From contig JAABRD010000002.1 of NCBI GenBank assembly GCA_011391085.1, positions 124,001-188,000 of the forward strand: a stretch of DNA of 64,000 bases. The letters are read 5' to 3'. The notes under the pieces were generated by a model. It was not told where the DNA came from and made no database searches. It worked only from the letters and a program-made list of their open reading frames with translations. Both the position numbers and the translations under genes were made by a program. Of the stretch, positions 28,799 to 43,461 are shown in pieces (within the stretch, counting starts at the first letter, position 1; every line of letters begins with the position of its first letter). Origin of the DNA: Thiotrichaceae bacterium. GTDB taxonomy: Bacteria > Pseudomonadota > Gammaproteobacteria > Beggiatoales > Beggiatoaceae.

Positions 28799-31105
28799 TT
28801 ATGGTAACCGTTGACATCCCGTCAACCACGCCCCCCGTTGTTTCCCGTCCCCTTTTCGCACCACCGTCGCCTGTTCCACCGTCGCTAATTTGGGTATCAA
28901 TCGAAACCCCAGACTGGGTTTCAAATCATACGGTGACAGTGTACTGCCCGCAATGGGATAGACGTAAAAGGTGCTACGATTCAGATATTCTTCAAAGGTC
29001 GCCCATTCACATGGACGCGGCAAGAGGTTTGGGACTGCGTTGAGAGTATTGGCACCGGCTAACAAACTGTCTCCAATGGTTTGGTCGGGGGAGTCAATGC
29101 GCACTTGGCCATCAATGCCTAATCTGGAGGAGGCACTGACTAAACTGTCGGGCGTTTTTAAGAATTGGTCGGCGATAATACGAATATTGCCACCGTGGCC
29201 CGCATCCGCTTGGGCGATAATCTGACCGTGGTTTATCACTACAAACTGGGGATTGTCAATGGTGATATTGCCACCATCCCCTATACCACCCGCTACACTG
29301 GTCGTCAATAGTCCCTGCCGTAAATACAATTGGTTAGCGACCGTGAGGTGTATATCACCACCGCCAGCATGGTCTGCGGAAGTGGTAATATTTCCACCGT
29401 CAGTTACGTGGAGAGTATTAGTAGTGATTAGGACTTCACCGGCCTCGCCGGTACCATTGTTGCTACTATTTGCACCAATCTGTCCACCCTCGGTTAAAAC
29501 CATTTCATTAGCTTGAATTTCCACTATACCCCCATTTCCACTACCGCCCATCGTACCGCTTCCTATGAGACTAGGGAGAATTTCCCAAATTCGCCCGATT
29601 GCCTTTACAACGACAGGCGCCCATCCAGCCAGATAGAGTTGGCCTGCCACTTGGATTCTTATATTACCTGCGGGAGCCATTTGATAAGTCATGCTACTAA
29701 TACGACCACCCTCTAGCAAATTAGCCGATTGGGCATTAATGGTAATATCACCTCCTCGACCCCTTCCATAAGTTTCTGTTAAAAGTTCACTGGCGTTTAA
29801 ATTTAATTCTTGGGTGCGTATCCAGATGTTACCAGATTGCCCAATTCCCAAGGAAATACTAAGAATCATAGTGAGAGGATTCTCGTATGCCTGGCCATGA
29901 CTTAGCCTAACCCCAGGATAAAAACCAGAGAGTGACAAACGGTCGGTAATGTTAAAAGTCAGGTCGCCACTGCGTCCTGTTCCTATCACACCACTGGCAA
30001 TCGTAGCCGCGTCTCTCAGGAAGACTTGGTTGGCATGAATCTCTATCGAACCAGCTTCACCCGCGGCGGCACTCCCCGTATTAATCAGCGCGTTGGTAAC
30101 GTCTAAATACGGGGTCTCAATGAGAATGCCACCCGCACTATTCATACTCGTGGTCAGCACCGAAATTTCACTGTTGACCCCTTTGAGATAAGTGGCTTCC
30201 GTGATTTTGAGGTTAATATCTTTACCATTTTGATTGCCAAACGTGTGGGAACGAATGATGGCATTGTCAAGGACAAATTGGCTGGCGCGAATAAAAGCGG
30301 TGCCGCCACTATGACCACTCAGTTCTATCAGGGTGTTTTCGAGCGTGATGTTGCCGCCTTGGCCATGAAGGATTAAATCATTGTCACTGGGAATCACTTC
30401 CCCACGAGAGGCCAAACTCGCTAGATTGATTCGTCCATGTTCAGCCGCTAAGATAGATTCAGAAGCCACCGTGGGAATGAACAGACTATTATCGGCGGTG
30501 AGTGGTATGTCACTGGTTAAGTGGAGGTCACCTCCAATTAAGGAGAGGGTTTGATCGAAGGGCACCGAGAGTTTGCTACTTTGCGTCTGAATTGGGGCGG
30601 GCGAATCGGTTAAAAACCCAAACGCCGCAATGGGGGCCACCGTCAATAAGTTGTTACTCGGAGTACGTGCCTCAAATTTGCTACCGTCACTTAACCGCAG
30701 GTAGTCCGCCGTGCTGGCATGAAATCCTCCTTGCACATCTAACTTGGCATTGGATCCAAACATGATACCATAAGGGTTGAGAAAATACAGGTCCGCATTC
30801 GGAATCGTAGAACGTAAGGTGCCATCAAGGTGAGACGGATTCCCGCCTGTCACACGACTGATAATATTTTGCACATTGTCAGGTCCAGAGAAGGTGGCAC
30901 TTTCGTGACTTTGCAAATTGAAGTCTTGAAAACTGTGGAATAAATTGCCACCGTGTTGTTGGCCTAAGTCGGCACCGATTTGATAATCGGGGCCAGGTAA
31001 GGTGCCTTTGCGTCCTAAGGAACCGTCGAGGGTGACTTGGGCTAAGGCGGTGGTGGAAATGAATAGGGTGAGTGTGGCAAGAGATAAAGTCGTGCGGGTT
31101 TTCAT
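28799..31105 (-). CDS. two-partner-secretion exoprotein (filamentous haemagglutinin N-terminal domain), copy 1
   Basis: The ATG at 31105 begins a signal peptide (MKTRTTLSLATLTLF, cleavage near TALA) in a 768-residue product; an in-frame extension to 31273 is repeat-derived. The TPS domain (~25-200) has the family hallmarks NIISRVTGGNPS, a L.FLNPYGIMFG strand and GGFHASTADYLRL. About 450 residues of beta-helix-forming repeats follow (G..G.I.I.A..L.L..GG.I). A conserved C-terminal region holds two cysteines (PRPCEWATF and LTGCQ). Such proteins cross the outer membrane through a TpsB porin; no TpsB gene is in the window. The canonical NPNG(I/V)F motif is NPYG here. Confidence 0.88.
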   Translation of the reverse strand: MKTRTTLSLATLTLFISTTALAQVTLDGSLGRKGTLPGPDYQIGADLGQQHGGNLFHSFQDFNLQSHESATFSGPDNVQNIISRVTGGNPSHLDGTLRSTIPNADLYFLNPYGIMFGSNAKLDVQGGFHASTADYLRLSDGSKFEARTPSNNLLTVAPIAAFGFLTDSPAPIQTQSSKLSVPFDQTLSLIGGDLHLTSDIPLTADNSLFIPTVASESILAAEHGRINLASLASRGEVIPSDNDLILHGQGGNITLENTLIELSGHSGGTAFIRASQFVLDNAIIRSHTFGNQNGKDINLKITEATYLKGVNSEISVLTTSMNSAGGILIETPYLDVTNALINTGSAAAGEAGSIEIHANQVFLRDAATIASGVIGTGRSGDLTFNITDRLSLSGFYPGVRLSHGQAYENPLTMILSISLGIGQSGNIWIRTQELNLNASELLTETYGRGRGGDITINAQSANLLEGGRISSMTYQMAPAGNIRIQVAGQLYLAGWAPVVVKAIGRIWEILPSLIGSGTMGGSGNGGIVEIQANEMVLTEGGQIGANSSNNGTGEAGEVLITTNTLHVTDGGNITTSADHAGGGDIHLTVANQLYLRQGLLTTSVAGGIGDGGNITIDNPQFVVINHGQIIAQADAGHGGNIRIIADQFLKTPDSLVSASSRLGIDGQVRIDSPDQTIGDSLLAGANTLNAVPNLLPRPCEWATFEEYLNRSTFYVYPIAGSTLSPYDLKPSLGFRLIPKLATVEQATVVRKGDGKQRGAWLTGCQRLP

Positions 31106-31137
31106 GGTTAAACCTGTTAGTTTAGATGGTAACACGA

Positions 31138-31231
31138 GAAGTTGGAGTCCGGAATTTATTCCGTTCTTGGCAACGGAATAAATTCCGGACTCCAACGGTA
31201 AACAACGGAATAAATTCCGTACTCCAAAGGC
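31138..31231. repeat. GGAGTCCGGAATTTATTCCG repeats upstream of exoprotein copy 1
   Basis: One unit in one orientation (GTTGGAGTCCGGAATTTATT) is followed by two in the other (AACGGAATAAATTCCGGACT and AACGGAATAAATTCCGTACT). The layout, including flanking AGAAG and AAAGGCAGATT, is the same as at 33810-33931 upstream of copy 2. Confidence 0.85.
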
Positions 31232-31248
31232 AGATTCTTTTACTAAAG

Positions 31249-33777
31249 TTACTGATGACACCCCGTCAACCACGCCACTCGTTGCTTCCCGTCCCCTTTT
31301 CGCACCACCGTCGCCTGGCCCACCGTCGCTAACTTCGGTATCAACTGAACCCCCTGACTGGGTTTTAAATCATAAGGTGACAATGTACTCCCCGCAATCG
31401 GATAGACGTAAAAGGTACTGCGATTCAGATATTCTTCAAAACTCATATCTTCGCAGAACCGGGGTAATAAGGCCGTGAGGTCGGTGAACTCGGTGGGAGA
31501 CGCTAATAAACTGTCTCCAATGGTTTGGTCGGGCGAATCAATCCGGACTTGGCCATCCAGACCGAGTCTGGAGGAGGCACTGATTAAGCTGTCGGGCGTC
31601 TTTAAGAATTGGTCGGCGATAATACGAATATTGCCACCGTGGCCGGCATCGGCTTGGGCAACAATGTGACCGTGGTTCATCACGACAAATTGCGGATTTC
31701 CAATAATGATATTGCCACCATCCCCTATACCACTCGCTACACTGGTCGTCAATAGTCCCTGCCGTAAATACAATTGGTTAGCGACCGTGAGGTGTATATC
31801 GCCCCCGCCAGCCAGTTGTGCCGACGTGGTAATTTGACTGTCGTCAAAGATTTCTAGGGTATCCGCTTGTATGGTCAAATTCCCGGCTTCCCCGAGACCC
31901 GTACTATTGGCAGTTATCAAGCCACCTTCACGAAGTTGCAGCTGATTCGCTTGCACTTTCACGTTGCCACCACGGCCGATCGTGGTCGTGCTACTGGAAA
32001 TGTTGCTGGGAATGCCCAGGAAATTACTTCCCCGAATCCGCAGGTCGCCCGTCACGCTGACGTTCACCTCCCCACCATCGCCCGTGCCAGCAAAAAGCGT
32101 CTTGCCAAGGACAAAACTGGTACTACTAGTAATGCTTGCACCTTGGTCTAACTGTAACTCGTGTGCCATTATCTGTATTTGGCCCGCAGGACCTGTACCC
32201 GCCGCGACGGTCATAATCACACTGTCTTGCATCACGAGTCGGTTCGCCGAGATGGTAATGTACCCGGCGGCGCCACTCCCAAGAGTACCAGCGCTAATCC
32301 CACTTTGCATGGCGTCAATCTCCATGTTAAAATAAGCAGAAGTAGCCGTAACCGTGGATTTTCTCCCCTTAACGGTGAAATCGCCGGCTACTTTGAGAGT
32401 AATGTGGCCGCCGGCATGTCCGCCAAAAGTATCACTGACAATGCCACCGCCATTTTGAAATATCACCGAGTCAGCTTCAATCATTATACTCCGGGCATCG
32501 GCCAGTCCCGCTGCTTCCATGGAGAGAAACCCGCCATCCAAATTCAGATAGTGAGTGGTAATGTGAATTTCTCCAGTTTGACCAGTGTTCATGCTATCTG
32601 CACTAATATAGCTATTGTCACTCAAGGGATTCTCTTCTCCCGCGACACGTCCGATAAGACTCAACGAATCCCGTGCATTAATACGAATAATTCCACCCGC
32701 GCCACTACCCTTCGCTATACTCGCCAAAGCAGCCCCTCCCGATAAGGTGACCTGATTGGCTTGCACTTCGATATCACCTCCCGCACCGCTACCCAAGGTA
32801 CTGGTATCAACGTGGCTACCGGCGGTCATCTCTAGGCGTGGGGTACGGATTTGAACATTACCGCCGTTACCGTTGCCAAACGTAAGTGTGCCAATCGCTT
32901 CGAGACCTCCTTTAACATTGACCGATTTGTCGGTGACGATGTCAATTCCTTGGCCGTCTTGATTGCCTAACGTGAATGCCTCAATCGCGGAGTGATCCAT
33001 CAGCAATTGTCCACCACGAATCAGCACTTTACCACCACCGAGGCCACTGGTAGAGACTTTCGCTTGATTCTGTAATTCGATAGTTCCCCCCTTTCCTGAC
33101 AACGTGGGATTAGCTAAAGCGACTTGACCTGCCTGGGCCAGACTGCTTAACGTCACTTGCCCACCGAGGGCACTCACTTGGGCACCGGTAAGAGAGAGGT
33201 TGCCGCCGGTGAGTGAGAAGGTTTGTCCATAAGGAACCGTGAGTTGTGATTCTTGCAACGACAGCGCGGCAGGCAAGTCGGTTAAAAACCCAAACGCCGC
33301 CACCGGCGCCACCGTCAACAGACTGTTACCTGGCACCCGCGCCTCAAACCGTCCCCCATCGGCTAAACGCAAATAATCTGCGGTACTAGCATGAAATCCT
33401 CCTTGCAAATCTAATTTGGCATTCGGTCCAAACAGGATACCAGACGGATTGAGAAAATACATATCGGCATTGGAAATGGAGGAACGAAGGGTGCCATCAA
33501 TGTTGGACGGATTCCCGCCCGTCACGCGGCTGATGATATTTTGCACGTTGTCAGGTCCAGAAAAGGTGGCACTTTCGTGACTTTGCAGATTGAAGTCTTG
33601 AAAGCTGTGGAATAAGTTACCGCCGTGTTGCTGGCCAACGTCGGCACCGATTTGATAATCGGGGCCAGGTAAGGTGCCGGCGCGGCCTAAGGTGCCGTCA
33701 AGGGTGACTTGGGCTAAGGCGGTGGTGGAAAAATACAGAGTGAATGTCACTAGGTGTAAAGTCGAGTGATTTTTCAT
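31249..33777 (-). CDS. two-partner-secretion exoprotein (filamentous haemagglutinin N-terminal domain), copy 2
   Basis: The 842-residue product has a signal peptide (MKNHSTLHLVTFTLYFSTTALA) and a TPS domain nearly identical to copy 1, here with NPSGILFG. The beta-helix repeats are longer than in copy 1. The C-terminal ~170 residues are almost the same as in copy 1, including the two cysteines (PRFCEDMSF and LTGCH). The middle region differs strongly from copy 1, while both ends are conserved even in DNA. This fits tandem duplication followed by diversification of the exposed part. It is probably an adhesin or biofilm protein. Confidence 0.88.
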   Translation of the reverse strand: MKNHSTLHLVTFTLYFSTTALAQVTLDGTLGRAGTLPGPDYQIGADVGQQHGGNLFHSFQDFNLQSHESATFSGPDNVQNIISRVTGGNPSNIDGTLRSSISNADMYFLNPSGILFGPNAKLDLQGGFHASTADYLRLADGGRFEARVPGNSLLTVAPVAAFGFLTDLPAALSLQESQLTVPYGQTFSLTGGNLSLTGAQVSALGGQVTLSSLAQAGQVALANPTLSGKGGTIELQNQAKVSTSGLGGGKVLIRGGQLLMDHSAIEAFTLGNQDGQGIDIVTDKSVNVKGGLEAIGTLTFGNGNGGNVQIRTPRLEMTAGSHVDTSTLGSGAGGDIEVQANQVTLSGGAALASIAKGSGAGGIIRINARDSLSLIGRVAGEENPLSDNSYISADSMNTGQTGEIHITTHYLNLDGGFLSMEAAGLADARSIMIEADSVIFQNGGGIVSDTFGGHAGGHITLKVAGDFTVKGRKSTVTATSAYFNMEIDAMQSGISAGTLGSGAAGYITISANRLVMQDSVIMTVAAGTGPAGQIQIMAHELQLDQGASITSSTSFVLGKTLFAGTGDGGEVNVSVTGDLRIRGSNFLGIPSNISSSTTTIGRGGNVKVQANQLQLREGGLITANSTGLGEAGNLTIQADTLEIFDDSQITTSAQLAGGGDIHLTVANQLYLRQGLLTTSVASGIGDGGNIIIGNPQFVVMNHGHIVAQADAGHGGNIRIIADQFLKTPDSLISASSRLGLDGQVRIDSPDQTIGDSLLASPTEFTDLTALLPRFCEDMSFEEYLNRSTFYVYPIAGSTLSPYDLKPSQGVQLIPKLATVGQATVVRKGDGKQRVAWLTGCHQ

Positions 33778-34104
33778 AGTTAATCCTTTTAAGTTTAGAT
33801 GGTCAAGAAGTTGGAGTACGGAATTGATTCCGTTTCAAGAAGTTGGAGTACGGAATTTATTCCGTCCCTGGAAACGGAATAAATTCCGGACTCCAACGGT
33901 AAACAACGGAATAAATTCCGTACTCCAAAGGCAGATTTTTATCTCGTTCCCACGCGCCAAACTAAGTTTCTGGGCGCCGTTGATTTCAGATGATTTGCGT
34001 AAGTTCTGTCCTCAATCTATTATCCTCTATTGGAACAATATTTGCGAATTTTTTCCTAAATTGATACAATTACCACAACCAAATTGATATGTAATCATTT
34101 TCAA
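33778..34104. repeat. intergenic region with GGAGTCCGGAATTTATTCCG repeats
   Basis: Four units lie at 33810-33931 (two GTTGGAGTACGGAATT(G/T)ATT and two in inverse orientation), then a TCTCGTTCCCACGC half unit at about 33942. About 34000-34104 is AT-rich and should hold the promoter of the cyclase gene; no confident -35/-10 pair can be named. Confidence 0.75.
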
Positions 34105-36183
34105 ATGAAAAAAATCAGCTTTAAAGCCAGCGTTCTATGGCAATTTACCTTTTTACTACTTTTTACGGTTTTAAGTATCGCCCTCAGTTTTTATTATGGT
34201 TCCAAAAAAATTACCTTGGAAATGGCAGAACAGGTGACTAAACAATTCACCGATAAAGTGATAGAACGCACGATTAACTATCTGAATGTACCAGCTATTC
34301 AAACGAAGCCGTTAAGTGGATTAGCCCAACACCAAAAAAATATTATGGATGTGCATGAGGAATTCTGGAAATACATGTGGGAACAATTGTTGGTGTTACC
34401 TCAAATACAAACTATGTTCATTGCCGATGCCGCCGGCAGTTATATTCAAGTTCGTAGAGAACCTAATCTTGCCACGCGGTTCATTGACCGTTCCATCACG
34501 CCTCCTATAGAAAAATGGTTCTTACGAGATGAGTCCTACAACGTCACGCGCATAGAAAAAGGAGATGCGAGTTTCGACCCACGCACTCGTCCTTGGTATC
34601 AAAATACTCAAACCCAACCGCGCATCTATTGGACCGATGTGTATATCTTCACCACCGCCCAAACCCCAGGGATTTCTGCCACCTACCCCGTATTAGATGA
34701 CACTGGCAAATTGATTGCGGTAACTTGTGTCAATACACCGTTACACAGCCTCTCAGATTTTATTACGGAACAAAAACTCAGTAAACATGGCGTGGTTTTG
34801 ATTGTCAATGGTAAAGGCGAGTTAGTCGCTTATCCCGACAAACGACGTTTGACTCATCGGGATGAGAAGACTGGTCAATGGCGTTTAGTCCATGTGACCG
34901 AGTTGGAGGAACAATGGATTACACGGGCCTATCATAGGTATGTACAGACTCGGGAGGAAAAGTTCTCTATTCGTAGCGACGGTAAAAATTATCTTGTCAA
35001 CATTGCTTCCTTTCCCGATTCATTCATCTCGGATTGGCGGATTCTGGTCGTCATTCCCAAAGAAGATTTGTTAAGTTCTGTGTACGACCTCTTCTGGCAA
35101 GTGGGTTTTGTGTCTCTAGGAATCTTTGGAATTTCTATTATCCTCGTCTATTTTTTTGCAGTTAAAGTGACTCAACCCATTACCCAGTTAGCCATTGAAA
35201 CGGAGAAAATTAAGAATCTACATTTGGATGAGGTCCGGTCCGTACAATCGGGTATTAAAGAAATTGATATGATGAATAGGACGTTAATCTCTACCACGCA
35301 AAGTCTCCATTCCTTCCGTAAATATGTCCCCGCAGACCTAGTTCGCCAGCTTATCCAACTGGGTCAAGAAGCGAAGTTAGGGGGAGAAGAAGCGGAGTTA
35401 ACCATCATGTTTTCCGATATTCAGGGTTTCACCAGCATTTCGGAAGACTTGCCGGCGCAAAAATTGATGTTGCATCTCTCCGAATATTTGGAAAACCTGA
35501 CCCATATCATCATGCAAGAACATGGTACGATTGACAAATATATTGGTGATGGTATCATGGCGTTCTGGGGGGCGCCAGTGAAATTACCCAATGCGACATA
35601 CTGTGCCTGTAAGGCTGTGTTAGCTTGCCAGAAGAGATTGCAAGACCTCAATATCAAGTGGTCACAAGAAGGTAAACCTGAGTTACATACCCGGATAGGA
35701 TTGCATACGGGTAACACGGTGGTAGGCAATTTGGGTTCGGATGACCGCATGAATTACACTATTATTGGCGATAGCGTGAACCTGGCGTCGCGTTTAGAAG
35801 GGGCCAACAAGTTGTACGGAACTAATATTATCATCAGTGAAGCCACCTATCAACAAGTTGCTAAACAATTTCATTGTCGCCTGTTAGATATTGTGGCAGT
35901 GAAAGGTAAACGGGTCAGTGTGAAGATTTACGAATTAATAGCGGAGAAAACGACACCGTTACCAGAGGAGATGCAACAATTTTGTGCTGAGTATGCCGAG
36001 GGTTTAGAGGCTTACTTACGACAAGATTGGGGCACTGCGTTGGCGATATTTAAGGAGTTGCAAAAGCGTTTTCCAACCGACGAATCGGTTCAACTCTTTA
36101 TTTCACGTTGCCATAAGTTCCAACACTCTCCTGATAAATTGCCACCAGATTGGAATGGAGTGGCGACGTTGGAAGATAAGTAG
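34105..36183 (+). CDS. membrane sensor adenylate/guanylate cyclase (dCache-HAMP-class III cyclase)
   Basis: The 692-residue product has a membrane helix (~10-32) and a periplasmic dCache-like sensor (~35-325) with the typical DPRTRPWYQNT. A second helix (~338-358) is followed by HAMP (~360-410) and a class III cyclase domain (~425-600). The catalytic elements are visible: metal Asp in MFSDIQGFTS (about 438), KYIGDGIMAFWGAP (Asp about 482) and the NYTIIGDSVNLASRLEG loop. A single TPR-like unit ends the protein. It should turn an extracytoplasmic small-molecule signal into a cyclic nucleotide; cAMP versus cGMP cannot be told from what I see. The ATG at 34105 is preferred over TTG 34084. Confidence 0.88.
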   Translation: MKKISFKASVLWQFTFLLLFTVLSIALSFYYGSKKITLEMAEQVTKQFTDKVIERTINYLNVPAIQTKPLSGLAQHQKNIMDVHEEFWKYMWEQLLVLPQIQTMFIADAAGSYIQVRREPNLATRFIDRSITPPIEKWFLRDESYNVTRIEKGDASFDPRTRPWYQNTQTQPRIYWTDVYIFTTAQTPGISATYPVLDDTGKLIAVTCVNTPLHSLSDFITEQKLSKHGVVLIVNGKGELVAYPDKRRLTHRDEKTGQWRLVHVTELEEQWITRAYHRYVQTREEKFSIRSDGKNYLVNIASFPDSFISDWRILVVIPKEDLLSSVYDLFWQVGFVSLGIFGISIILVYFFAVKVTQPITQLAIETEKIKNLHLDEVRSVQSGIKEIDMMNRTLISTTQSLHSFRKYVPADLVRQLIQLGQEAKLGGEEAELTIMFSDIQGFTSISEDLPAQKLMLHLSEYLENLTHIIMQEHGTIDKYIGDGIMAFWGAPVKLPNATYCACKAVLACQKRLQDLNIKWSQEGKPELHTRIGLHTGNTVVGNLGSDDRMNYTIIGDSVNLASRLEGANKLYGTNIIISEATYQQVAKQFHCRLLDIVAVKGKRVSVKIYELIAEKTTPLPEEMQQFCAEYAEGLEAYLRQDWGTALAIFKELQKRFPTDESVQLFISRCHKFQHSPDKLPPDWNGVATLEDK

Positions 36184-36367: not shown

Positions 36368-36919
36368 ATGAAATTAGGACTCACAGGTTCACACCGTACC
36401 GGCAAAACCAGTTTAGCCCAAATGATTGCTAATCAAACGGGTCTACCCTTTCTTAAAACTAGCACCAGTCAAGTGTTTCAACAACATGGTTTAGACCCCG
36501 CGACCCCGCTGAAGTTTAACACTCGTTTGCACATTCAACAACAAGTCTTAACAGCGGCGGTAGAAATCTGGCAAACCGCACCAAAGGCGTTTGTGACAGA
36601 TCGGACGCCTATCGATTTTATGGCTTACACGTTAGCAGATATTCAAGGAAATACAGAGGTTGATTTTGTTCAATTAGAGTCTTATCTGATGCAATGTTTT
36701 GACGTGACTCGTCAATTTTTCACGCAGTTAGTGATCATTCAACCTGCGATTCCGTTGGTGTATGAACCAGGGAAAGCGGCGTTGAATAAGGCTTATATGG
36801 AACATCTCAACACGATTATTTTAGGTTTATGTCATGACGAACGTTTACATTGCCCTGTCAACGTGTTAAACCGAAAGAAAGTGAAAATGGAGGAACGGGT
36901 GTATGAAATATTGAAGTGA
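36368..36919 (+). CDS. P-loop NTPase/kinase-like protein (AAA_28-like)
   Basis: The 183-residue product begins directly with a Walker A motif, GLTGSHRTGKTSLA (P-loop at 7-15). TDRTPIDFMAY follows, a Walker-B/lid region typical of the small ATPase/nucleoside-kinase-like group (AAA_28 and NadR-type kinases). The fold is a short nucleotide kinase-like Rossmann core; the substrate is unknown. The start ATG lies at the end of an inverted repeat with no ribosome-binding site visible. It converges on the MFS gene with only 21 bp between the stop codons. Confidence 0.7.
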   Translation: MKLGLTGSHRTGKTSLAQMIANQTGLPFLKTSTSQVFQQHGLDPATPLKFNTRLHIQQQVLTAAVEIWQTAPKAFVTDRTPIDFMAYTLADIQGNTEVDFVQLESYLMQCFDVTRQFFTQLVIIQPAIPLVYEPGKAALNKAYMEHLNTIILGLCHDERLHCPVNVLNRKKVKMEERVYEILK

Positions 36920-36940: not shown

Positions 36941-39421
36941 CTATACCTTGCGGGACAAGAACTGAAATAATCCAGCACTGGCAATCATCACCAAACCAAA
37001 TAAGGCCAACCCTAACGTGCTTTGATGACTGAAGATGAATAATTGGCTAACGATCATTGGTCCCAAAATGTGGCCGCCGCGTTCCAAAAAAGTGTAAGTG
37101 GCACTGATGGACTTGCTACCATAGCGTTTGGCCACCTCCGTTTTGTTAATATGCGTTAATACCGGTGCAGTTGACATTCCATTGGAAATGCCGGCGAGAA
37201 TTAGAAACAAAAAAATCAGATAATCTTCAAAGTGCAGGAGTCCCTGATTCACGATAATTTCATTGAAGTTGAAAGTCATCCAATTTAACCAGGGTGCCCC
37301 TGGCAAATATTCTCCCATCCACAGACTGGCACCTAGCATTCCTAACATGAGGATTCCTATTCCACCCACGATGGAACTCAATGACAGGGTGTTACGAGTT
37401 TCTCCCCATTTGTCGATAAGACGAGAAATATAATGAGTAATGATGGAGGAGGAGATATAAAATAGCATCAGTCCTAACCCAATGTCTTCACTGGCAAAAC
37501 CGCGGTTTGATAACACCAAGGGCACGGCAAACATGACGACGCCGGCGATGGCGATTTTGGAAGTTAAACCAATGAAGGTTAGCGTATTCATAAATTCAAA
37601 ATCGCGGAAGACTCGCATAAATTGAAGTAACGAGACCGTTTCGGTACCCTTCCCTTGCGGGTTCTGAGTAATCTCTTCCACATTTGGCACCAGGGCCCAT
37701 AAATAAATGGTTGCCAACAGAGTTAACAGAGAAGCAATCATAAACAATGTGTGATAAGAGAGATAGACAAAGAGTAACGCCCCTATTGAAGTGCCAGCAA
37801 TCATACCGGCATTTCGGCCCGTCACTTTTACAGCCCCGCCTTGGGTTTGTTTATCTTTGGGAGTGATGGCCAGAATATAAGATTGCAAGCCAATCAGGAA
37901 GACGCCTTGACCAATGCCAGAAAACACTCTACTGAGGGTCATTATCCAAAAATCCTCGGTACTGGCAAGCAACGTCAAACCTATCATTTCGGCAATGAAA
38001 CCGGCGGCCAACAATTTTTTGAGATTCCCTTTTTCAGCATAGTAACCGGCGGGAATGAGGACTAGGGCAAAACAGGTGTAGAATAGACTGAATGGTAAAC
38101 TGGCGGTGGCAAATGCGGAACCCGATTGTTCGGCCATACTGGTCGCCAATTGGGGCAGAAATGATACCGATAAAGCACTGACGAACACAATGAGGAAATA
38201 GGCCGGCTTGATTAACCGTAACCCAATTTGGAAATTGTTGTCTTCATGATTGCCAGGATGTGGGTTTGGATCGGAGATTACGATTTTTCCAGACTCACGT
38301 TTTTTGCGTATCGTCAACAATGCAGTCCCCGCGTCTAGGAAGATAAAGGAGATAAAACCGCACGCGACAAAGAGGACAATGAATGCTTTCGCACTACTCC
38401 AAATGGCACTCATCACGACTTTAATCGGGATACTGACAGCGACCCGGAAAGTCTGGTTTTGTTGAGAAGTTGACAGTGGTACGATATACTCGAAGCTGTC
38501 AGGTGACGCCTGATAGAAGTTGCCAATCTCTTGTGTATCGGTATGATAAACGACTAAATCATCTCTGGTCAAGGCAATCTGATTAATATGCGGATTATTC
38601 TTTTTGTAATCTTGAAAGGCTTCATTGATTCCACTGAGGTCATCAATGCGCAAATTTAACTCTAAAACTGCTGACAACCTCTGCGCCATCGAGTTAGACA
38701 ACGCCTTGGTGCTGGCCCGCGCCCCGGATTCGTAAGTGTTAAAAATCACCACCGAAATGAAGACTGACATCACGATAAATTCAATGATGTAAGTGGTTTT
38801 CAAAAACCGTTCTCTCGTTTTAGGTCGGGCAAAGTAAATCTCATAAACAATAATCAGTAAAATAAAAATCAGAGTCAGTGTCAGAAACGCATAAGACACT
38901 CTCTTAAATTGTTCGTCTAAAACGTGAAACAAGTCCTGCTTTTGAGACTCGATAGCCACCTGGCCTACTACCCCAAAACGGGTATCCAGGGGTAGAATCA
39001 CGCGGAGGCTGTCCACCGATTCTTCAACTGTCTTGTTGCCATCGAGTTTAAACAGACTCGCTTGGTATTGGCGGGCTACCAAGGTTTTCTTCAACTGTTC
39101 CAGAGAAGTATTTCTTTGTCCACTTAAGAACACTAAATTACCTTTCGTGTCAGTGACTTGAATAGCTTGAATAGTATCATCAGAAAGTAACAATCTTTCA
39201 CTTTGACTAGAAAATCCGCTAAATTGTTTGAGAGGCAGACCAGCTTGCAAATAAGGTTCAAAATTATATCTGATAATCTCCCCCTGTGTGGCCAATCTTG
39301 CCAGTTGAAATTGAGTGTACTTACGTTTAGCTTCGCCGTAACCAATAAATTCTAACAGTGCGAAGGTTAAAATCAGAATGATAATGATCGGAAGGCTGAT
39401 AAAAATATTTTTAAGTTTCAT
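36941..39421 (-). CDS. MFS transporter fused to N-terminal extracytoplasmic sensor domains
   Basis: The 826-residue product is about twice the length of a normal MFS carrier. Order: membrane helix (~8-27), extracytoplasmic domain (~30-175) with TIQAIQVTDTKGNLVFLSGQ as in Cache/PAS sensors, helix (~177-195), helix (~214-232), second extracytoplasmic domain (~235-345, with NPHINQIALTRDDLVVYHTD), helix (~346-366), then a 12-helix MFS domain (~400-820). The MFS part has a motif-A-like GYYAEKGNLKK and FSGIGQGVFLIGLQSYI. The architecture is that of a signalling receptor front end joined to a transporter. The substrate is unknown. Confidence 0.8.
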   Translation of the reverse strand: MKLKNIFISLPIIIILILTFALLEFIGYGEAKRKYTQFQLARLATQGEIIRYNFEPYLQAGLPLKQFSGFSSQSERLLLSDDTIQAIQVTDTKGNLVFLSGQRNTSLEQLKKTLVARQYQASLFKLDGNKTVEESVDSLRVILPLDTRFGVVGQVAIESQKQDLFHVLDEQFKRVSYAFLTLTLIFILLIIVYEIYFARPKTRERFLKTTYIIEFIVMSVFISVVIFNTYESGARASTKALSNSMAQRLSAVLELNLRIDDLSGINEAFQDYKKNNPHINQIALTRDDLVVYHTDTQEIGNFYQASPDSFEYIVPLSTSQQNQTFRVAVSIPIKVVMSAIWSSAKAFIVLFVACGFISFIFLDAGTALLTIRKKRESGKIVISDPNPHPGNHEDNNFQIGLRLIKPAYFLIVFVSALSVSFLPQLATSMAEQSGSAFATASLPFSLFYTCFALVLIPAGYYAEKGNLKKLLAAGFIAEMIGLTLLASTEDFWIMTLSRVFSGIGQGVFLIGLQSYILAITPKDKQTQGGAVKVTGRNAGMIAGTSIGALLFVYLSYHTLFMIASLLTLLATIYLWALVPNVEEITQNPQGKGTETVSLLQFMRVFRDFEFMNTLTFIGLTSKIAIAGVVMFAVPLVLSNRGFASEDIGLGLMLFYISSSIITHYISRLIDKWGETRNTLSLSSIVGGIGILMLGMLGASLWMGEYLPGAPWLNWMTFNFNEIIVNQGLLHFEDYLIFLFLILAGISNGMSTAPVLTHINKTEVAKRYGSKSISATYTFLERGGHILGPMIVSQLFIFSHQSTLGLALFGLVMIASAGLFQFLSRKV

Positions 39422-39611
39422 GTTTGGTTTGTAAGAAAATGAGAGATGTCGGTTTTCCCAATGCTGTTGCCACCCGATCCCGATGGACTGGAGGCTTCAG
39501 CCGTAGGGTGGCAATGGCTACCGGCTGAAGCCTCTAGTCCACCGGTGCAGAACCACATTGGTGGACTAGAGGCTTCAGCCGGAGGGTGGCGGTTGCTACT
39601 TGAAGTCAGTT
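39422..39611. repeat. GGACTAGAGGCTTCAGCCGG hairpin
   Basis: Three units lie here: GGACTGGAGGCTTCAGCCGT at about 39484, its inverse ending CTCTAGTCCACC at about 39542, and GGTGGACTAGAGGCTTCAGC at about 39561. They separate the FimV/ABC fusion gene from the MFS gene upstream region. Confidence 0.7.
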
Positions 39612-41186
39612 CTACTTTTGCTTCATGACATCATGCCCAAACGCCCGCACCGGTTTCCCCGTGTAATCATAAATGAAAGATGCACTTTCAAACAACTGGA
39701 AAGGAATTTTTAAACCAATTTTCCGCGCTATTTGAAAATTGATAGCAATGTCTGGAGGAGTAATTACACCGACTTTCAATTTACCTGCTTGGGCTTGTCC
39801 TTTCAGAATTTTTACAGCATAGAGACTGGCTAAATGCGCATTGTTGCGCCGGTCAATGCCAATGGCCATCACGGCACTGTCGGCATTGTCGGTCACAATA
39901 TTCGGAATGGAACCTAGCACTGGCACTTTGCCTGCCGTGGTTGCCACCGTAGCCATGTTCGAGAAGACCAAGGTACTGCTGGTCACCCAGAAAACGCTAT
40001 GTTTCAAATCCGCATCCGTCTGTCGCATGGTGATAATGGCTTCCAAAATCTGTTTGCGTAATTCCTCCACCGCAGTCTCCTTGGAAGTCACTTCTACGTT
40101 GATAACCTTGATGTTCATTTGACGCAATTGTTCTTGAGTCGGGATGACTTCCGTGGCTACCACTTGTGCATGATTACGGTCATATAAAATTCCCAAATTT
40201 TTGAGACCAGGAATTAAATCCATCAAATAATTGACTTGCACATCAATCGGCACATTTAGGGAAGTATATGCAATGTTGGTTCCACTGCCGTTTTCATAAT
40301 CTGCCACTTGATGCAACAACACAGGATCCTTATTGGTGCAAGTCACCACGGGAATGTTGCCACCGTTATAAAATTCATGGAGAAAAGCGGCAGATTCGGA
40401 CCCCATCGAAAAAATCAAGTCCATGTTTTCCCGTTCTGCGAGTTGCACCGCAGCTTTGCCCAGTGCATTGTCTTTATTGAAGTGAATTAAAGTGATTTCT
40501 GCATAAATGCCTTCATCATATAGCACCTGTAATAATTTAGAACTGGCTAAACTATAACTATCTGAAGGTTTGGGAATCAAACCTAGAATTTTTTTCGGTG
40601 GCAACTCTGACGTTCTCTGCCATTGCGGAAAAATTTTCATCACCTCTGGTCGGGCTGGCAAAATGTTGGCTTGCCAATTTTGCAAGACCTGTTTTTCCAA
40701 TTCCAACCAATACAAACTGGTGGTATCTTCTGCCGTTTTATTGGCAACCGGAGGAAAGGATGGTGACACGGAGGACGGCGCCGCGGGAGAAGTGATTACG
40801 GTGGTAAGACACCGTAATTTTTTCCCACTTTGCGAAGCCTGCTTCCATTCTTGGGTTTGTCGTTGTAATTCGGCAAGTGCTTCCGCCGGTGGAATCGTGG
40901 CAATTTCTGATAAAGTAGGCAAATTTAATGACACCTCCATTTTTAACGAATTGAAATTGCATGGTCGAGAAAACGCTTGTAGATTGGTACGCCATAAAGC
41001 CATCAACACTTGTGGAAGACTAACGCTTTTATCGGGGCGTACTTCTTTAGCAATGTTCCATAATGCCTGACCATTTTTTATGGGTCCATATTTTGGGGGA
41101 GGCACAGGGGGGGCTTGCCCAACGGCAATGACTAAATTGTTAAACAAGCAAAGAGTAAGTAGGGTCCATAATCGGATTTGTGTCAT
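39612..41186 (-). CDS. FimV-domain/ABC-type substrate-binding protein fusion
   Basis: The 524-residue product has a signal peptide (MTQIRLWTLLTLCLFNNLVI, cleavage near VGQA). A FimV N-terminal-type domain (~33-115) follows, with YGPIKNGQALWNIAKEVRPD, SVSLPQVLMALWRTNLQAF and LNLPTLSEI, ending in a W..A linker helix. A linker then leads to a periplasmic binding protein of the ABC_sub_bind/TrpX kind (~200-515) with KKILGLIPKPSDS, DLIFSMGSESAAF, IPVVTCTNKDP and GILYDRNHAQV. FimV domains normally occur in the polar hub protein and pair with peptidoglycan-related functions. A fusion to a solute-binding protein would position ligand sensing or uptake at the wall. No permease gene lies beside it. Confidence 0.8.
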   Translation of the reverse strand: MTQIRLWTLLTLCLFNNLVIAVGQAPPVPPPKYGPIKNGQALWNIAKEVRPDKSVSLPQVLMALWRTNLQAFSRPCNFNSLKMEVSLNLPTLSEIATIPPAEALAELQRQTQEWKQASQSGKKLRCLTTVITSPAAPSSVSPSFPPVANKTAEDTTSLYWLELEKQVLQNWQANILPARPEVMKIFPQWQRTSELPPKKILGLIPKPSDSYSLASSKLLQVLYDEGIYAEITLIHFNKDNALGKAAVQLAERENMDLIFSMGSESAAFLHEFYNGGNIPVVTCTNKDPVLLHQVADYENGSGTNIAYTSLNVPIDVQVNYLMDLIPGLKNLGILYDRNHAQVVATEVIPTQEQLRQMNIKVINVEVTSKETAVEELRKQILEAIITMRQTDADLKHSVFWVTSSTLVFSNMATVATTAGKVPVLGSIPNIVTDNADSAVMAIGIDRRNNAHLASLYAVKILKGQAQAGKLKVGVITPPDIAINFQIARKIGLKIPFQLFESASFIYDYTGKPVRAFGHDVMKQK

Positions 41187-41715: not shown

Positions 41716-43461
41716 GTGCTTAATCCCCCTAATCATCAGCCCTATCGTGAATTAACCCTAGCAGCAGTGCTATTAGGCATCTTCCAAGGCGCCATTCTTA
41801 ACGTTGCGTTTGCCTATAGTGCCCTCAAGCTAGGTTTCTCTATGGGGGCCTCCCCTATTGCGGCCATCCTCGGCTATGTATTTTTACGTGGTCTGTTACG
41901 CAAGGGCACCATTGTAGAAAACAATATCAATCAAAGTATTGCCTCTGGTATCGCATCTGCTGGAACAGGGGTTGTATTTGTTCTGCCCGCAATATTTTTG
42001 CTGAGTGTCCAACCCTCAAACTCCTTTACTTTTTCTTTTTGGCCATTGCTGATCGCCGGAATTGGCGGCGCCGTCTTAGGCGTTGTGTTACTCATTCCTT
42101 TACGCAAACAACTGATTGAAATAGAACGTTTACGATTTCCTTCCGGGGTAGCAGTAGCGACAATTATTCAATCCGGTGCGGCTGGTATAGGAAAAGCCAA
42201 ATTGTTAGGTATCGGCTTCTTAATCAGTGCCATCTGGAAAATGTTGATGCTGTTAGGATGGTTGGATTATCCAGGCATCCTCGAAAATGAGGAACTGAAT
42301 TTAAGTTTTGGATTCCTCCCAGCTTATGTGGCACCTGCCTTGTACTTATCACCCATGAACTTTGCCGCAGGATTACTGGCAGGTAGCGCAGGGTTGCCAT
42401 TTTTATTCGGTGGTATCTTAGCCTGGTGGATAATTTCTCCCGTCTCCGTCTTCTCCGGTTGGATACCCACCGCGACAGAAGGTTTGGTATTGACCGATTT
42501 TATCTATAATCAGATGTTGCGTCCGTTAGGAATTGGTATTCTCCTGGGGGCCGCTTTGATGGAAGTAATCGTCAATTTTCCTGTTATCAAAAATGCCATG
42601 GTTAGTCTAGCGTTTACCACCCGCAACAAAATGACTGATGTCACTCGCGATGAGATGCCTATGTGGGTACTGTTAGTCAGTGGCGGAATGGCAGTGTTGT
42701 TCTTTTTCACCGCGGCCCTTCTCACCCCTGGGGTACTTTTGCCACAAGCCCTTCTTACCGCGGTGCTAGGTACTCTTTGGTTAGGCTTGGCAGGTCTGGT
42801 GGTTGCCCAAACCACCGGTCTCACTGACATCTCCCCAGTCTCTGGCATCGCCTTGATTTCGGTGGCCATCATGATGATATTACTGAATGGCAACATCATG
42901 GCCTCTTTGATTCTAGCCTTAACGGTGGCAGTGGCTATCAGTCAAAGTGCAGACATGATGGAAGACTTGAAGACGGGATTTTTAGTGGGCAGTCGTCCCG
43001 TTTTACAACAACTGGTGCAAATCAGCATTTCTTGGATAGGCGTGATTTTCACTTTTATGGTAGTATATGTTCTGTGGACCCATGGTCAGGCAGGTCAACA
43101 CGGATTTGGTCCCAACACGCCTCTTCCAGCCCCCCAAGCGGCCACGTTAACCAGTATTGTGGAAGCCGTCAAAAATTCCTCCATGCCCACCGACAAATTT
43201 TTATTAGGAGGCATCGTTGGACTCCTACTGGGCATTGCGCCTGTGTCAGGTTTAGGCGTTTTAATGGGACTGGCCATGTATTTGCCATTTTCCATCACGT
43301 TAGGCTATGGACTTGGTTGTTTAGCGCAAATGGTTCTCGTCAAACATAAAGGGGTGGCGTTCACCGAAACCAAAGTCGTACCACTGGCCGCCGGCTTGAT
43401 TATTGGCGAAGCCCTGGTGAGTGTGGGAAATGCTATTTATGAAATTTTGCAATCATCATAA
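41716..43461 (+). CDS. OPT-family oligopeptide/metal-chelate transporter
   Basis: The 581-residue product has about 14 hydrophobic helices through its whole length and OPT-family features: ELTLAAVLLGIFQGAILNVA at the N-terminus, FPSGVAVATIIQSGAAG, and PVSGLGVLMGLAMYLPFS near the end. OPT proteins import oligopeptides or metal-siderophore complexes with protons. The start is a GTG at 41716 with AAGGATGA 8 bp upstream. No ATG in frame lies near, and the residues just after the GTG (LNPPNHQPYRELTLAA) fit the usual N-terminal pattern. The gene appears monocistronic. Confidence 0.88.
   Translation: MLNPPNHQPYRELTLAAVLLGIFQGAILNVAFAYSALKLGFSMGASPIAAILGYVFLRGLLRKGTIVENNINQSIASGIASAGTGVVFVLPAIFLLSVQPSNSFTFSFWPLLIAGIGGAVLGVVLLIPLRKQLIEIERLRFPSGVAVATIIQSGAAGIGKAKLLGIGFLISAIWKMLMLLGWLDYPGILENEELNLSFGFLPAYVAPALYLSPMNFAAGLLAGSAGLPFLFGGILAWWIISPVSVFSGWIPTATEGLVLTDFIYNQMLRPLGIGILLGAALMEVIVNFPVIKNAMVSLAFTTRNKMTDVTRDEMPMWVLLVSGGMAVLFFFTAALLTPGVLLPQALLTAVLGTLWLGLAGLVVAQTTGLTDISPVSGIALISVAIMMILLNGNIMASLILALTVAVAISQSADMMEDLKTGFLVGSRPVLQQLVQISISWIGVIFTFMVVYVLWTHGQAGQHGFGPNTPLPAPQAATLTSIVEAVKNSSMPTDKFLLGGIVGLLLGIAPVSGLGVLMGLAMYLPFSITLGYGLGCLAQMVLVKHKGVAFTETKVVPLAAGLIIGEALVSVGNAIYEILQSS

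Follow-up and report, generated by a model that had tools for sequence, protein, structure and literature searches.

Architecture of the sensor-fused MFS protein

The stretch of Thiotrichaceae bacterium DNA analyzed here (64,000 nucleotides, referred to as the window) contains a gene, P0001, in which an MFS transporter is preceded by what look like sensor domains, and this raises the question of what such a transporter would be sensing and with which partners. The frame begins with an ATG and runs for 826 aa with zero internal stops. Hydropathy placed four TM segments in the N-terminal part (residues 5–23, 175–193, 209–227 and 346–364), leaving loops of 151 residues (24–174) and 118 residues (228–345) between the helices. 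Since Lys and Arg in this part cluster in the short loops 194–208 and 365–408, the two long loops are predicted to be extracytoplasmic. The remainder of the protein belongs to the MFS; Pfam returned MFS_1 as its only match (residues 409–708, 7.5e-30, 104.5 bits against a curated cut-off of 33.4) and 11 of the 12 expected TM segments rise above the hydropathy threshold, the absent one falling within 746–802. A Pfam scan of residues 1–398 gave zero matches, Cache included. The original prediction had described four extra helices and two periplasmic domains ahead of a complete MFS domain, and hydropathy, charge distribution and the MFS_1 match all bear this out, with its domain limits (30–175 and 235–345) matching the loops found here.

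A search of 42 genomes of the order returned two full-length orthologues, each from a different genome (51 and 49% identity), and more distant proteins of the same type turned up in class and phylum scans. Because the same architecture recurs in other genomes, it is neither a chance arrangement nor an assembly fusion of two genes, the artefact against which the original prediction had warned. A model of full-length P0001 built from three sequences was too poor for use (pLDDT 43.8). The features of the locus are given in Table 1.

Table 1. Features at the P0001 locus, in window coordinates.
Feature	Position	Strand	Description
Sensor-fused MFS protein P0001	36941..39421	minus	826 aa; open frame, Pfam, hydropathy
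Extracytoplasmic domain A, Cache/PDC fold (modelled)	38900..39352	minus	Residues 24-174; model of 1-210, fold search, homology to separate TM-Cache protein
Extracytoplasmic domain B, Cache-like by homology	38387..38740	minus	Residues 228-345; profile matches
MFS domain	36944..38230	minus	Residues 398-826; closest solved relative NorA
Partner substrate-binding protein (SBP)	39612..41186	minus	524 aa; FimV_core-type N-terminal stretch, then PF04392 ABC_sub_bind (TrpX-like)
REP-like palindromes	39480..39582	.	In the 190-bp SBP-MFS gap; genome-wide repeat
dCache class III cyclase	34084..36183	plus	Convergent neighbour; dCache_1 4.8e-18, Guanylate_cyc 1.9e-24 (Pfam)

Sensor domains and subfamilies

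Domain A was modelled from P0001 residues 1–210 together with five homologous sensor regions (pLDDT 72.3; residues 104–127 below 50). In a fold search the model matched the sensor of WalK (Z 11.1, rmsd 2.8, 126 aligned) and LuxQ (Z 9.9, rmsd 2.9, 127 aligned), and the sensor domains of KinD, Tlp3, DctB and CitA were also among its best structural matches. The Foldseek list also held Ragulator/MglB-type chains, which are alike in general shape and had a similar E-value. As modelled, domain A, held between two TM helices, is a Cache/PDC fold. Profile comparison of domains A and B with their helices removed gave a probability of 94.3 (E 1e-7), which together with the match of residues 206–372 described below supports domain B as a putative Cache-like homologue of domain A. 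The Cache or PAS fold suggested for both domains in the original prediction is therefore borne out for domain A in its model and structural matches, and has the support of profile homology for domain B. Copying of the sensor domains from the neighbouring cyclase was also considered and is unsupported (profile match ~1%).

To describe the family we use a grouping of our own into subfamilies S1, S2 and S3. S1, to which P0001 belongs, has two sensor domains in one chain and is without HAMP. S2 proteins (~700 residues) have one Cache domain, then HAMP in some, then MFS, and mostly occur with a separate TM-Cache protein, C2, encoded alongside (by its own gene at 23 of 28 S2 loci); fused cases in S2 are L059 and L060. 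The HAMP domain makes signalling plausible in S2, and it is absent from S1. In the S2 protein L033, sCache_3_2 (3.4e-7) is followed by HAMP (7.9e-6), both over the Pfam cut-off, and then by MFS; its residues 16–255 also matched a WalK kinase model at 7.9e-12, below the cut-off of that model. Pfam recognised sCache_3_2 in two of the ten S2 N-termini scanned. A PDB profile search with the S2 N-termini placed the DcuS periplasmic domain at the top, as a weak match (E 0.15), and a second PDB search of the sensor regions gave weak mixed matches and no clear family. A transposase-like gene interrupts the C2 sensor gene of one genome (G006; L033:4181-5834), in which the MFS and SBP genes are intact.

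Profile comparison matched P0001 residues 1–205 to C2 (probability 98.5, E 1.6e-15) and residues 206–372 to the N-termini of the Cache-HAMP-MFS proteins of S2 (probability 97.8, E 1e-12), so P0001 looks like the fused counterpart of two proteins that stay separate in most S2 bacteria. S3 consists of two proteins with a different long N-terminus of ~600 residues (L035:7235-10354, from contig 129 of the window's own genome, and L034:5382-8615), with the SBP absent nearby.

Genomes carrying the family include Beggiatoa sp. SZUA-411 (G034, from the window's family group) and Sulfuriflexus sp. (G379, Gammaproteobacteria), and the named plasmid members come from Vibrio, Azospirillum and Aureimonas. 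A single-sequence scan of the genome contigs gave 0 loci and a scan with the S2 alignment gave 2. When the fused S2 protein served as query across the class, few loci came up, in 4 of 340 genomes.

A substrate-binding protein gene accompanies the transporter

The most telling fact at this locus, absent from the original prediction, is the SBP gene immediately upstream of P0001 and in the same orientation, 190 bp away and without overlap. A PF04392-family SBP is found near 49 of the 52 long-frame sensor-MFS loci, which is the linkage of SBP gene to transporter gene looked for in SBP-dependent transporters; these 49 include near relatives (e.g., G005/G006, G409/G454 and three vibrio plasmids). 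At 44 of the 52 the SBP gene is on the same strand within 300 bp on either side of the MFS gene, and where gene junctions were checked there was a 4-bp overlap in 10 of 10. The SBP is 867 bp away with the C2 gene between at L057, 2.8 kb away on the same strand and two genes off at L164, and 1.6–2.5 kb away on the opposite strand at L070, L175 and L177. It is absent at three loci, namely L030, where the gene runs off the contig, and the two S3 proteins. This count of 52 leaves aside the short-frame hits of G685, G757, G094, G255 and G291, those of G496 and G411 that matched in the N-terminal part only, and 11 of 19 plasmid records. At G018, which has two short-frame matches, no SBP was apparent in the ORF list. 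Of the 49 SBPs, 25 went into the SBP profile and 24 are independent of it.

As a control we took the 30 MFS_1 loci that the family search gave from 14 of the same genomes, with flanks of ~1.5 kb, shorter at contig ends. Two had an SBP (L126 and L127) and both proved to be sensor-MFS genes, leaving 0 of 28 plain MFS loci with an SBP beside them and leading us to reject a chance neighbour. By coordinates, 11 of the 26 PF04392 matches in these 14 genomes adjoin a sensor-MFS gene. Among the window's relatives the SBP gene precedes the MFS gene, and at other loci it mostly follows it, so the two stay neighbours although their order varies. SBP and MFS distances across the 49 loci have a mirror correlation of 0.83, a value that shared ancestry alone could yield. 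These observations bear on whether P0001 could be an ordinary drug-efflux MFS protein with extra structural domains and an SBP neighbour by chance. Its best family matches are indeed multidrug transporters, but the contrast between 49 of 52 loci and 0 of 28 controls, and an adjacency that stays while the order of the two genes flips, make this explanation scarcely credible.

The REP-like palindromes between the two genes are probably incidental, as the palindrome around GGACTAGAGGCTTCAGCCG occurs at 33 places in the window and 908 + 923 in its own genome (≤2 mismatches; backward control 0). Plasmid records label the two proteins only as 'MFS transporter' and 'ABC transporter substrate binding protein', with a D-Ala D-Ala ligase or ATP-grasp protein also named, and the system is therefore invisible to annotation.

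The MFS domain

Several charged residues of the MFS domain are kept across 49 sequences: R498 (48/49), D670 (46/49), R781 (46/49), E780 (45/49, with D in the remaining four) and K622 (42/49). This is the pattern expected of a working substrate/proton path, going by the alignment. The solved sequence closest to the domain is NorA (E 0.0004), and the best NCBI model for P0001 is the multidrug model TIGR00880, at 47 bits against a cut-off of 131, with other models far below theirs; P0001 thus resembles the drug/H+ antiporters (DHA) and is not assigned to them. Since both NorA and the best model are of this kind, export is hinted at. A GPPIGG stretch is kept in the sister proteins, which we take to be antiporter motif C.

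Two Azospirillum relatives (L071 and L072) consist of an MFS protein of ~500 residues, close to the S2 MFS domain, without sensor and without SBP, and this suggests the transporter can probably work alone. Their neighbours are feoAB, a hydrolase gene and a chemoreceptor gene.

It is conceivable that substrate passes from the SBP to the MFS domain for import, with the Cache domains as a docking platform, which would make a fourth class beside ABC, TRAP and TTT. The near-universal SBP pairing fits this, no ABC permease gene was noticed next to the pair in the loci read (an incidental, undirected observation), and PMC9352664 states three SBP-dependent classes (TRAP, ABC importers and TTT). TRAP and TTT resemble the present pair in joining a secondary transporter to an SBP, but they are not MFS, and the tie between P0001 and its SBP is known here from gene linkage. 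Against import stand the likeness of the MFS domain to drug/H+ antiporters in both TIGR00880 and NorA, and the absence of the SBP from the sensor-less relatives. The GPPIGG stretch, as an antiporter motif, also argues against it, and we regard an SBP-dependent importer as unlikely.

Gene neighbourhood

The dCache-cyclase gene next door, from which the original prediction had argued that the locus already uses such sensors, is real (Table 1). As an argument it is weak from one locus, but the association of Cache-bearing enzymes with the family recurs elsewhere, and we consider the cyclase a probable signalling partner of P0001. Over the 49 loci, whose examined flanks differ in length, class III cyclase matches were found near five and SpoIIE matches near 13, and the cyclases and SpoIIE proteins that were tested contain Cache or HAMP parts according to Pfam, one of the SpoIIE proteins being SiaA-like. 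At L025 the cyclase gene overlaps the MFS gene by 4 bp. The window's cyclase also matched Pycsar cyclase models, which we take as general class III cyclase likeness; PADLOC defence models gave no match for P0001 or the SBP. At L058 (2991-3887), genes for an anti-sigma-type ATPase and a STAS protein stand directly before the C2-MFS-SBP genes, an arrangement that suggests a partner-switching output.

Such neighbours raise the possibility that the MFS domain no longer transports and instead senses, with output through the adjacent Cache-cyclase or SpoIIE phosphatase. The recurrence of Cache-HAMP enzymes next door, the SiaA-like protein among them, and the STAS and anti-sigma-type ATPase genes at L058 would fit a pure receptor. 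The strong conservation of intramembrane charges and other residues, however, is that of a working transporter, and many loci have no output enzyme in the examined flanks, so that loss of transport appears distinctly unlikely.

A D-Ala-D-Ala-ligase-like ATP-grasp protein is encoded near 12 of the 49 loci and a glutamate-cysteine-ligase-like protein near three. For this subset of loci it could be imagined that a dipeptide-like compound is produced by the enzyme, exported by the MFS domain and measured outside by the SBP and Cache domains, as feedback or a quorum signal. Amino-acid-like ligands are plausible given that the SBP is TrpX-like, and the ligase counts themselves favour this reading. 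Neither ligase gene, however, lies beside the window's own pair, and both types are absent from the examined flanks at 34 of the 49 loci, making a product-sensing exporter very unlikely.

Type VI secretion genes were found near 10 of the 49 loci, as tss clusters at L059, L060, L066, L067 and L073 and as VgrG at L029, L055, L056, L068 and L175. On the vibrio plasmids (L066, L067 and L073), the ATP-grasp ligase, sensor-MFS and SBP genes form a triple with a second SBP_bac_3-like gene, located between tssH and an FHA gene of the type VI secretion cluster. Elsewhere in the window, a small AAA_28-type nucleotide-binding protein (36368-36919, 1e-7) is encoded between the cyclase and MFS genes, and an OPT-family oligopeptide transporter (41716-43461, 2.4e-57) is divergent from the SBP gene. 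Two long, very alike neighbouring proteins at 28799-33777 have the appearance of filamentous haemagglutinin-type secreted proteins.

Comparison with known systems

A close precedent for an SBP working with a membrane-anchored PDC domain is LuxQ, which recognises AI-2 through LuxP (PMC8534201). The LuxP-LuxQ pair shows that action of an SBP by way of a PDC domain is possible. P0001 is like this pair in that the SBP is encoded with a membrane protein and domain A has the LuxQ fold, and unlike it in that the output is an MFS domain instead of a histidine kinase and the SBP is of PF04392; the likeness is known here from genes and fold. Pfam and NCBI models found no histidine kinase domain in P0001. 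In DcuS-DctA a PDC sensor and a transporter work as one unit, according to PMC8307970 and PMC4280142, and P0001 shares this joining of PDC sensor to transporter. The DcuS-DctA unit, however, consists of two separate proteins, with a kinase and a transporter of the DctA type, whereas P0001 is a single chain with an MFS domain and lacks a kinase.

Regulatory domains (CBS, cNMP-binding, PAS and UspA) are known to occur fused to MFS transporters, and PMC10710835 describes these fusions as usually C-terminal. P0001 likewise joins regulatory and MFS parts, but its fusion is N-terminal and extracytoplasmic, with a dedicated SBP gene. Finally, the SLC5/STAC histidine kinases (CbrA, CrbS and RpuS) fuse a transporter domain to signalling parts (PMC9100948) and are comparable to P0001 as transporter-signalling fusions; they differ in being SLC5 rather than MFS and in having a kinase output, with no SBP stated in the abstract of that paper. 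A literature search of open-licence papers did not find a Cache-fused MFS or an SBP-MFS pair described.

Proposed mechanism and significance

The conserved sensor-transporter/SBP module is real, and the sequence evidence for it is strong. For P0001 itself we favour an SBP-informed receptor-transporter (transceptor), a reading whose chances we judge to be about even. The PF04392 SBP would catch a small ligand in the periplasm and dock, in the manner of LuxP on LuxQ, on the pair of Cache domains anchored in the membrane. The resulting change would pass via the N-terminal helices, or in sister proteins via HAMP, to the exporter-type MFS domain and set its activity, and it would probably be passed also to the Cache-bearing cyclases or SpoIIE phosphatases encoded nearby. 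Speaking for this reading are the Cache fold of domain A, the homology of the sensor domains to each other, the conserved pairing with the SBP gene, the charged residues kept in the MFS domain and the recurrent Cache-bearing output enzymes. Counting against it are the loci with a more distant or opposite-strand SBP, the SBP-free S3 proteins, the sensor-less Azospirillum relatives, the poor full-length model, the missing HAMP domain of S1 and the 190-bp gap between the window's two genes.

More broadly, and with the odds somewhat against us, we tentatively propose that these proteins may represent an undescribed class of SBP-coupled MFS systems, widespread in Pseudomonadota, in which the SBP acts via membrane-anchored Cache domains on the MFS domain. 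Capture, signalling and transport would then form one module, which would in some cases be part of a type VI secretion cluster and be linked with cyclases or SpoIIE phosphatases that carry Cache domains. If true, SBP-linked transporters would gain a fourth class, in which the docking part would for the first time be a Cache receptor. If the pairing is functional, the MFS would join ABC, TRAP and TTT as SBP-linked machines, and Cache domains would gain a role in transport control beyond kinases or chemotaxis. The copies in vibrio type VI clusters would, moreover, give a testable link from an external small molecule to type VI secretion.
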